Under the pieces are notes generated by a model. That model did no database searches. It worked only from the letters and a program-made list of their open reading frames with translations, and was not told the DNA's origin. A stretch of 64,000 nucleotides of DNA from Natronobacterium haloterrestre (lineage in GTDB: Archaea; Halobacteriota; Halobacteria; Halobacteriales; Natrialbaceae), in contig NZ_FOKW01000010.1 in assembly GCF_900112205.1 (NCBI RefSeq), forward strand, positions 62,001-126,000, given 5' to 3'. How positions within the stretch are numbered: the first letter of the stretch is position 1; every line of letters starts with the position of its first letter. Position numbers and translations under genes: made by a program. Below, in pieces: positions 30,151 to 62,318 of this stretch.

Positions 30151-30321
30151 GTAAGACGGCGGCGCGACCCTGTCTGACGCGCGTGTCTTACACCGGAAAC
30201 GCCCGCGAGCGGGCGAATTTCTCCGTTTCGTGTCCGCTGTAAGACGACCGTCTTACGCGAATAAAGCGATAACTGCCCAACGTAATAAAAGTTCCGGCGA
30301 TCCGAACGGTCAGTGTCTTAC
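30151..30321 (-). promoter_or_regulatory. cdrS-ftsZ2 promoter with five GTCTTAC/GTAAGAC sites
   Basis: Heptamers GTAAGAC or GTCTTAC occur at 30151, 30185, 30239, 30250 and 30315. The two at 30239-30256 form a perfect palindrome (GTAAGACG-AC-CGTCTTAC). The 30185 site extends to GTGTCTTACAC. Candidate TATA elements on the minus strand are CTTTATT (about 30258-30265) and TTTATTAC (about 30284-30293). The palindrome would lie next to or just upstream of the transcription start. Inference: these are operator sites for CdrL, CdrS or both. Confidence 0.6.
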
Positions 30322-30339
30322 GACTGTTCGGATGTATGA

Positions 30340-31071
30340 CTAGCCGGACTCGAGGACGTCCGCGGACGGCGTCCGACGGCCACAGCTCGGGCAGAACGCC
30401 CAGTCCGATCGGAGTTCGTCGCCGCAGTCGCAGAACAGCCGGCGGGACGCTTTCTCCCCGCAATTGGGACAGTAAACGTGGTCGTCGTCGACGGATTCTC
30501 CACACTGTCCACAGGTCGTGCCGGCGTCGTCCCGACTACGGTTCGGGTCGCGACCGTGCGTTCGGTTCTCGTCGCCGTCCCGGCCCGGATTCGGTTCCGA
30601 TTCCGGTTCTGGAACCGGATCGGCCCGATCCTCGGACGAGCCGACCTCCGCACGGACGCCATCCCCATCCCCCTCGAGCGAGATGGTGACGTTGACGTCG
30701 CGAGCGTTCGGTTCCGGCGCCGGAGCCCTCGAGCGGTGCGGCGTGGCGCGTTCTCCGTCCCAACCGCTGGGGCGAACACCAAACTGCGGGCCCCGACCGT
30801 GTGGGACCGGCTCGCGGTCCCGTTCCCCGGGCGGTGTAAGACGCTCGAACCGCTCGGCCAGAACCTCGTCTACGCGCTCGCGCACGAGGTCGTCTATCGC
30901 CGCCGCGGCGGGTTCCGCGCTCTCCGAGGCGTCCGAGACGTCCGAGTCACTCGAGTCACTGGAGTCGAGGTACGACCGGAGCGCCTCCCGCATCGCTTCG
31001 CTCTTGGAGAGTTCGAGGTCCTCGAGCTCGTCGACGAGCTCGTCCTCGGCGCGGAACGTGATCTTGCTCAT
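30340..31071 (-). CDS. cdrL: Ribbon-helix-helix / zinc-ribbon regulator CdrL
   Basis: 243 residues from ATG 31071. Residues 1-35 (MSKITFRAEDELVDELEDL, ELSKSEAMREALRSYL) are a ribbon-helix-helix. The middle is Ser/Asp/Glu-rich disordered sequence. The C-terminal 50 residues hold two zinc-ribbon knuckles (CGQCGE, YCPNCGEK, CDCGDEL, CPSCGRR). This layout and its position upstream of cdrS-ftsZ2 match CdrL, the longer division regulator described next to this operon in Halobacterium. The frame extends 14 codons upstream, but the TATA spacing favours 31071. Confidence 0.85.
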   Translation of the reverse strand: MSKITFRAEDELVDELEDLELSKSEAMREALRSYLDSSDSSDSDVSDASESAEPAAAAIDDLVRERVDEVLAERFERLTPPGERDREPVPHGRGPQFGVRPSGWDGERATPHRSRAPAPEPNARDVNVTISLEGDGDGVRAEVGSSEDRADPVPEPESEPNPGRDGDENRTHGRDPNRSRDDAGTTCGQCGESVDDDHVYCPNCGEKASRRLFCDCGDELRSDWAFCPSCGRRTPSADVLESG

Positions 31072-31077
31072 TCCCGT

Positions 31078-31108
31078 ATGGTACCATGTTGACACTCCCC
31101 CTATATCA
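31078..31108 (-). promoter_or_regulatory. cdrL promoter with a 10-bp palindrome
   Basis: CTATATCA (31101-31108, plus) reads TGATATAG toward cdrL, 30 bases from the ATG. Between them sits ATGGTACCAT (31078-31087), a perfect palindrome at the expected transcription start, a possible operator. Confidence 0.5.
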
Positions 31109-31162
31109 ATCATGCTGATAGTCGGCCGGATGGCGGGCCGGCGGTCGATTCGAATGATAACC

Positions 31163-31170
31163 CTTATATT
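31163..31170 (+). promoter_or_regulatory. tRNA-Tyr promoter
   Basis: CTTATATT lies 28-35 bases before the tRNA 5' end, the usual archaeal spacing. It is shared by position with the divergent cdrL region. Confidence 0.6.
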
Positions 31171-31197
31171 GTCCTCGGCGGTTACGTGTGAGTGCGA

Positions 31198-31271
31198 CCG
31201 CCCTTAGCTCAGACTGGTAGAGCAGTCGACTGTAGATCGACTTGTCCCCCGTTCAAATCGGGGAGGGCGGA
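31198..31271 (+). tRNA. tRNA-Tyr (anticodon GTA)
   Basis: A full cloverleaf can be drawn. Acceptor CCGCCCT (31198-31204) pairs with AGGGCGG (31264-31270), discriminator A 31271. The D arm is GCTC...GAGC. The anticodon stem GTCGA/TCGAC frames the loop CTGTAGA with GTA at 31232-31234, and the T stem CCCCG/CGGGG has loop TTCAAAT. No intron, CCA not encoded. The pair C1-G72 is the archaeal tRNA-Tyr identity element. Confidence 0.96.
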
Positions 31272-31532
31272 CTTCCTTCCTCGTCGAACTGTGGCTGAAT
31301 CGGAAAGCGACTTCTGAGTACCGCTTAGCAGTTCTACTGCCGGAATTGGGTTTCAGAAGTCGGACTCGTTTCAACCGTTTCGTGTCGAACAGACGCTCGG
31401 CGGCAGTGCTCGAGCACGACGCGTCTTACACGTTTCCGACGAAACTGCGTGTCCGGTTCTCTCCAGCACGGATCGATATAGTACATTCACTTCGAGAGCG
31501 AGAGGAGCAGGTCCCGATCCTCGAGAACCCGA

Positions 31533-46150: not shown

Positions 46151-46280
46151 ACCGATCGTGTCGGTACGTAAATCAATATAGCTTGTCGCCGCCGAGCGGT
46201 CGGCGGATCGCTACGGCGGGTGCTGTGTGGCGGTGGGGGAGCAGGTGGCCAGGTGGGCAGGTGGCGGAGAAGTGCGCGTC

Positions 46281-61565: not shown

Positions 61566-62318
61566 TTACAGAACATCGATTACCGGTTCGTCCTCGAGCA
61601 GTCGCGTCACGACCACCCGCGGCACCTCCCGGCGCTCGCGCAGTTCGCCCGCGATCTCGCGGGCCCTCGCCTCGAGTTCGGGGGTGTCGGCCATGTTGAG
61701 CAGCGGGACGACCGTCGCGCCGTCGGGAACGTCCTTCCAGCCCCCCGCGTCGCTCGCGAGGACGGTCGCGACGTCGGCTGCGGAGATACGGTCACCCGGC
61801 TCGAGGTCGGCGACGTTGGCGACCCGTTCGGGCCGGTGGACGTGCTCCTCGTCGAGTCGTTTGCCGACGACGCGGACGCTCGCGATCGGGACGACCACGT
61901 CCGTCCCTGCGGGCAACTGCGGTTCGTCCTCGTCGGGCGCCTTGAGCCAGCGGGTGCGCGCGCCGTCGGCCTTCACCAGCACGGTTTCCGGCCCCTCGAG
62001 GGCGTTCGCAAGCGCGTCGACGTCGGCCGTGTCGTAGCCGAGATACCGGTCGCCCTCGCGGGCCGCGGCGAGGCCCAGCGGCCGCGAGTCGGTTTCACGC
62101 GCCGCCGCGATCGGATCGTCGGCCACCGTCAGCGTCGCTACTCGGTCGTCGAACGGCGGGATACGGACCGTCGTCGTCACGATCGCTCGCTCGAGTCGCT
62201 CCGCGAGCGCGTACAGCGTCGATTTCTTCCCGCCGGCGCCGACGACGGCGAGGACGGTCGGTGACTCGGTGGCGGACGCGTGCTCGTCCAGCAGTGCCCG
62301 CTGGAGGGGGACCGTCAT
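61566..62318 (-). CDS. yqeC: YqeC-like putative selenium/molybdenum-hydroxylase accessory protein
   Basis: 250 residues from ATG 62318 (MTVPLQRALLDEH); a GTG 12 bases upstream is possible. P-loop-like VVGAGGKKSTLYALAERL, then RPLGLAAAREGDRYLGYDTADVDALANAL, and VKADGARTRWLKAPDEDEPQLPAGTDVVVPIASVRVVG, the YqeC hallmarks (parts). In bacteria yqeC sits with selenium-dependent molybdenum hydroxylase genes; none are here. Function in haloarchaea unknown. Confidence 0.83.
   Translation of the reverse strand: MTVPLQRALLDEHASATESPTVLAVVGAGGKKSTLYALAERLERAIVTTTVRIPPFDDRVATLTVADDPIAAARETDSRPLGLAAAREGDRYLGYDTADVDALANALEGPETVLVKADGARTRWLKAPDEDEPQLPAGTDVVVPIASVRVVGKRLDEEHVHRPERVANVADLEPGDRISAADVATVLASDAGGWKDVPDGATVVPLLNMADTPELEARAREIAGELRERREVPRVVVTRLLEDEPVIDVL

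Follow-up and report, generated by a model that had tools for sequence, protein, structure and literature searches.

The promoter of cdrS and ftsZ2 in Natronobacterium haloterrestre carries five conserved copies of the heptamer GTAAGAC/GTCTTAC between positions 30151 and 30321 of the window (the whole stretch of 64,000 nucleotides analysed here, positions 62,001 to 126,000 of contig NZ_FOKW01000010.1), and these copies probably form a multi-site operator for the regulator CdrL. The earlier note on this DNA had proposed that the heptamer is the operator of this promoter, and such a role is now strongly supported by its recurrence in every one of the 98 cdrS promoters compared across haloarchaea and by a central palindrome that is essentially single-copy per genome. 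The conserved layout and the single-copy palindrome, together with a published CdrL binding peak found only here, also led us to infer that GTAAGAC/GTCTTAC is the word that CdrL reads exactly.

The locus is encoded on the minus strand in the order cdrL (31071-30340), intergenic region, cdrS (30131-29952) and ftsZ2 (29949-28681), with a tRNA-Tyr gene at 31198-31272 on the strand opposite to cdrL. CdrS is a 59-aa ribbon-helix-helix (RHH) protein (Pfam RHH_1, PF01402, E 4.6e-8), and FtsZ2 is recognized by the Pfam Tubulin and FtsZ_C domains. CdrL, the proposed heptamer binder, combines an RHH with a double zinc ribbon; its Pfam matches are DZR and CdrL_M above the cut-off and RHH_1 below it (17.8 of 20.5 bits). 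In the direction of cdrS, the intergenic region contains a distal heptamer (30315-30321, GTAAGAC in cdrS orientation), the TATA-like box TTTTATTA of the cdrS-ftsZ2 promoter (30283-30290, minus strand), an 18-bp palindrome as the core of the operator (30239-30256), and two leader heptamers, GTAAGAC at 30185-30191 and GTCTTAC at 30151-30157, the latter about 20 bp 5' of the cdrS ATG; this order is conserved. Across 98 aligned promoters an A/T-rich block occupies positions -33 to -26 relative to the palindrome, and because it lies 26-33 bp before the palindrome, the latter should cover roughly the first transcribed bases, with a predicted cdrS-ftsZ2 transcription start at about 30257-30260. The palindrome had previously been placed between a TATA-like box and the start; it does lie downstream of the box, at the predicted start rather than clearly before it.

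Eight exact copies of the heptamer occur in the window. The seven reported earlier within 30151-31429 (at 30151, 30185, 30239, 30250, 30315, 30836 and 31423) were each recovered by direct count, as were the 18-bp palindrome at 30239-30256 and the single stray copy at 46278. Dinucleotide shuffles of the window gave 4.0 heptamers (sd 2.1), so that the clustering is unusual and the window total is not. The genome-wide count proposed in the earlier note yielded 79 copies in 4,495,442 bases (31 contigs) with no comparable cluster elsewhere, the reversed heptamer used as a control being commoner (122 copies), and GTAAGAC-N4-GTCTTAC at 30239-30256 was the sole exact palindrome in the genome. At the rate of the other 72 genomic copies, 0.02 heptamers are expected in 1,279 bp; seven in such a span has P of about 3e-16, or about 1e-12 after correction for all such windows in the genome. 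The corresponding values for the conserved five, which span 171 bp, are an expectation of 0.003 and a chance of 1e-15.

The cluster of seven did not survive as a unit. Its five members at 30151-30321 are conserved, and the copies inside cdrL (30836-30842) and beyond the tRNA-Tyr gene (31423-31429), which have no counterpart in 80 mapped orthologous loci, were discarded as operator parts and probably lie outside it. Many Halorubrum-type loci have a heptamer about 410-490 bp 5' of cdrS, probably within the 3' coding region of cdrL. A second CdrL target in the window genome was also sought and rejected: the imperfect palindromes, the best with two mismatches (L002, G000 C10:49680) and the rest with three, are about as frequent as reversed controls (36 vs 34 per strand).

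Conservation was assessed through a search of GTDB genomes for CdrS, which gave 271 relatives; the best 80 were used and their orthologous loci mapped. Heptamers were present 5' of cdrS in 80 of these best 80, in a recurring layout. Together with the window and 17 further genomes (14 selected for missing a strict palindrome and 3 for an unusual one), they constitute a set of 98 promoters, falling into 34 groups at 70% identity over the upstream 240 bp; this set is not a random sample, and two of its rows possibly represent one species. The enrichment in orthologous cdrS-ftsZ2 promoters anticipated by the earlier note holds throughout: the 98 promoters contain 455 exact heptamers against 3.9 in shuffles, with at least two in every promoter and at least three in 97. 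The palindrome is exact in 91 of the 98, and the other seven have one imperfect arm. Among the 91, the spacer is 4 bp in 61 cases, 5 bp in 19, 2 bp in six, 6 bp in three and 3 bp in two. The leader carries GTAAGAC followed by GTCTTAC in 84 promoters, GTCTTAC alone in 12 and neither in two. An exact distal copy 5' of the TATA-like box was found in 81, its orientation depending on lineage: it lies at about -65 from the palindrome as GTAAGAC or at -52 as GTCTTAC. Loci of family f9 (L197-L200, L203, L204) have a 2-bp spacer and no distal copy, and those of genus g44 (L201, L205, L206) a 6-bp spacer, offering a natural series for dimer spacing.

The same picture emerged from 292 Halobacteria genomes drawn evenly and blind to the motif. 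The palindrome with a spacer of 3-5 bp occurred in 277 of them, against one genome for the reversed-pattern control, and was single-copy in 276 of the 277; the one genome with two palindromes is G240. Fifteen genomes lack this form. In 14 of them the cluster is present, its palindrome having a 2- or 6-bp spacer or one degenerate arm; the remaining genome (G230) yielded no orthologous cdrS. When 294 genomes of the phylum were scanned with spacers of 2-6 bp, the palindrome was found in 51 of 53 Halobacteria vs 3 of 241 others, the reversed control likewise giving scattered single matches among the non-Halobacteria.

Several observations point to CdrL as the protein bound to these sites. In Halobacterium salinarum, where the locus has the same gene order, ChIP-seq of CdrL-FLAG gave a single reproducible site, upstream of cdrS-ftsZ2 (PMC7439475, main text), and the palindrome, unique in the window genome, is restricted to the type of region bound there. 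CdrL is reported to occur across Halobacteria and to be absent from every other archaeal clade (PMC7439475, main text). In our sample of 120 genomes of the phylum, the CdrL_M domain was detected in 14 of 19 Halobacteria vs 0 of 101 others. Haloferax volcanii was the only one of 14 named control genomes to have it. A cdrL reading frame lies 5' of cdrS in all 98 haloarchaeal loci with heptamers, and all 20 outgroup cdrS promoters lack the heptamer. Because we found no haloarchaeon that lacks cdrL, the dependence of the heptamer on cdrL is one tested across the class boundary only. The earlier note had named both CdrL and CdrS as regulators of this operon. Binding of the heptamer by CdrL is probable in view of the ChIP-seq peak (PMC7439475, main text), and binding by CdrS probably does not occur, as the promoter is unlisted among CdrS sites (PMC8406309, main text) and CdrS appears to use a different dyad.

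That dyad became apparent at the targets of CdrS in Haloferax volcanii, for which ChIP-seq with a tagged protein supplied from a plasmid gave 18 sites, including ftsZ1, dacZ and psmB, and a symmetric RHH motif at ftsZ1, dacZ and other promoters; the table of these 18 sites does not include the cdrS-ftsZ2 promoter (PMC8406309, main text). The ftsZ1 promoters of 30 genomes contain GTCNGAC-N4-GTCNGAC within two mismatches in 29 cases (18 exact), 62-68 bp 5' of the ATG, against 1 of 30 for the reversed control at two mismatches, and from its location we infer that this dyad is the published CdrS motif. Its 7-4-7 layout and inner GAC...GTC match those of the palindrome, and its outer halves are different. 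The palindrome itself does not fit the CdrS-type pattern: in 91 of the 98 promoters the arms read GTAAGAC and GTCTTAC, and GTCNGAC on both sides occurs in none of the remaining seven. Conversely, the 30 ftsZ1 promoters contain two copies of GTAAGAC, both outside the dyad. The two sites also differ in number, the CdrS-type dyad occurring at 39 places within one mismatch in the window genome vs one place for the palindrome. At dacZ the dyad was found within two mismatches at one place in 16 of 30 promoters, and at psmB no consistent dyad was detected among 30 loci, so that psmB was dropped as a source of the motif; the CdrS code is to this extent provisional, which counts against the reading of the heptamers as a CdrL operator. 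Of the genes beside CdrS-type dyads in the window genome, dacZ, which had been located independently, is the only one used here.

Two other places in that genome carry related sites. At L265 (G000 C13:293875-293892) the mixed dyad GTCTGAC-N4-GTCGTAC lies beside the start of a gene resembling the replication initiator Orc1/Cdc6, a call made by eye from its ATPase loop. At L259 (G000 C15:412741-412780) four CdrS-type half-sites follow one another in 11-bp steps, flanked by open frames on both strands, one of which encodes a small zinc-ribbon membrane protein.

The history of the promoter was examined in relatives outside the class. Of the 120 phylum genomes, 86 had a CdrS match (19 Halobacteria and 67 others), and 20 outgroup promoters were obtained from the 30 non-Halobacteria, among the 67 matched, with E of 2.9e-10 or lower. 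All 20 cdrS-ftsZ2 promoters contain GTCNGAC (40 exact copies against 0.7 in shuffles), and none contains GTAAGAC or GTCTTAC. When one mismatch is allowed, 68 of 74 half-sites fall on a single 11-bp register per promoter; choosing the best register for each promoter inflates this count, but 2,000 random placements scored likewise averaged 28.8 and never exceeded 38. The other periods from 7 to 15 put only 20-27 of the 74 half-sites in register. Such phasing is what RHH dimers bound side by side on one face of the DNA would need. A repeat at about one helical turn, a trait of RHH-type operators, is present in both the outgroup arrays and the palindrome, whose half-sites are 11 or 12 bp apart in 80 of the 98 haloarchaeal promoters and 9-13 bp apart in 91. 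Every haloarchaeal heptamer is one base away from GTCTGAC or GTCAGAC, and its fourth base is fixed, whereas that of the CdrS-type site is free. The one-base difference between GTCTTAC and GTCTGAC, together with the relatives lacking cdrL, in which the GTCNGAC kind is the only one present, suggests that CdrL may have taken over a promoter once under CdrS self-control, through a one-base change of the half-site. The outgroup arrays also contain seven copies of GTCATAC or GTATGAC in the 20 promoters, mostly at array ends, a hint that the outer half may already have been tolerant there. The TAC half is not foreign to CdrS, which counts against the CdrL-operator reading. The spacer range of 2 to 6 bp is likewise rather loose for touching RHH dimers and weighs on the same side.

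The alternative closest to the CdrL operator is that CdrS itself occupies the heptamers, in a negative autoregulation through sites weaker than those at ftsZ1. This would be consistent with the place of cdrS as first gene of the operon, with the inner GAC...GTC common to the palindrome and the CdrS dyad, and with the CdrS-type arrays found at the same place in outgroup promoters without CdrL. It nevertheless seems unlikely, as within Halobacteria the ftsZ1 dyads keep outer GTC/GAC and the cdrS promoter GTA/TAC, the fourth base is fixed in one site and free in the other, and the promoter is missing from the 18 Haloferax CdrS sites despite the plasmid-supplied tagged protein (PMC8406309, main text). 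CdrS may still touch its own promoter at another point: GTCAGAC (GTCTGAC on the plus strand), read directly at 30172-30178 between the leader heptamers and 13 bp from one of them, is a possible residual CdrS half-site. A site of this kind occurs at a similar place in many haloarchaeal cdrS promoters, with 42 GTCNGAC copies 70-89 bp past the palindrome start across the 98.

The RHH domain is an obligate dimer, and the residues of its strand that read DNA are usually those at positions 3, 5 and 7. The N-terminus of CdrS is MERVTLRIP in 98 of 98 loci, and the matching stretch of CdrL is K-[IV]-[TP]-F-R across the same 98, with P in one, so that positions 3, 5 and 7 are R, T and R in CdrS and K, T and R in nearly all CdrL. 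With T5 and R7 in common, the two predicted reading strands differ at K3 versus R3, a small difference that also weighs against the CdrL-operator reading. Two related alternatives to a CdrL operator involve both proteins. In the first, which we regard as doubtful, an ancestral CdrS auto-operator was converted to GTAAGAC/GTCTTAC as CdrL arose in Halobacteria, and the heptamers became mixed sites for CdrS-CdrL heterodimers, with GTA for the CdrL chain and GAC for the CdrS chain; were this true, FtsZ2 supply would depend on the CdrL/CdrS ratio. The second takes the heptamer simply as a mixed site at which one chain of such a heterodimer reads GTA/TAC and the other GAC/GTC. The symmetry of GTCNGAC, as for a homodimer, of which GTAAGAC has one half together with a different one, is compatible with this, as are the K and R at strand position 3 and the GTCNGAC halves close to heptamers in many promoters. 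Asymmetric sites are, however, bound by other RHH homodimers too. Moreover, the cdrS-ftsZ2 promoter is absent from the CdrS ChIP-seq list (PMC8406309, main text) and an interaction between the two proteins was not found in the main texts on either (PMC7439475, PMC8406309), which makes heterodimer binding quite improbable. Finally, it is very improbable that the inverted repeats act in RNA, as hairpins in the 5'-terminal part of the leader that control stability or translation. The palindrome and the leader pair would be transcribed and could pair, the palindrome loop tolerates 2-6 bases and the ftsZ2 mRNA is processed (PMC8303175, main text), but 81 of the 98 promoters have a copy 5' of the TATA box, in either orientation, that would fall outside the transcript, the arms are invariant or altered on one side only with no two-sided compensatory change in 98, the five copies repeat one exact word, and the reported processing site is inside ftsZ2, not in the leader (PMC8303175, main text).

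In the CdrL operator that we favor, one RHH dimer of CdrL would bind each GTAAGAC/GTCTTAC. Two dimers would lie side by side on the palindrome, where transcription is predicted to begin, and the dimers on the leader and distal heptamers would add affinity or build a larger complex. With the start region covered, transcription would be blocked or gated, and CdrL would in this way set the amounts of CdrS and FtsZ2. Judged from position only, the effect of CdrL on cdrS-ftsZ2 is probably repression. In Halobacterium salinarum, cdrL and cdrS are co-expressed under metal stress and not in rapid growth, and the cdrL deletion strain has second-site mutations (PMC7439475, main text); given the co-expression, relief of repression by a signal is possible, perhaps through the zinc ribbons of CdrL, which could serve as a sensor.

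Dimers of RHH regulators such as NikR, Arc, MetJ, CopG and omega bind short repeated or inverted subsites; examples are the half-site GTATGA of NikR and the heptads of omega. In NikR, the nickel-responsive RHH regulator, the metal-binding tetramer dictates a wide spacing of the half-sites. It is also the nearest solved relative of CdrS (2bj1, E 0.0017). The present operator differs in its half-sites 9-13 bp apart, in the extra single copies spread over about 170 bp and in the zinc ribbons of CdrL. The main text on CdrL regulation in Halobacterium salinarum gives no binding sequence and does not contain the terms 'motif', 'palindrom' or 'GTCTTAC' (PMC7439475); the sequence of the operator, the arrangement of its sites and their conservation across the class were worked out in the present analysis. 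A CdrL operator was likewise not found in our search of open-access main texts.

Few archaeal cell-division switches have a known dedicated regulator, and CdrS-FtsZ2 is among them; the heptamer operator offers an exact target for mutation in it, single-copy and conserved across the class. The one-base contrast between GTCTTAC and GTCTGAC would separate control of division by CdrL from control by CdrS. These results further suggest that the self-control of a global regulator may have passed to a new regulator of the same fold, with both states represented in living archaea.
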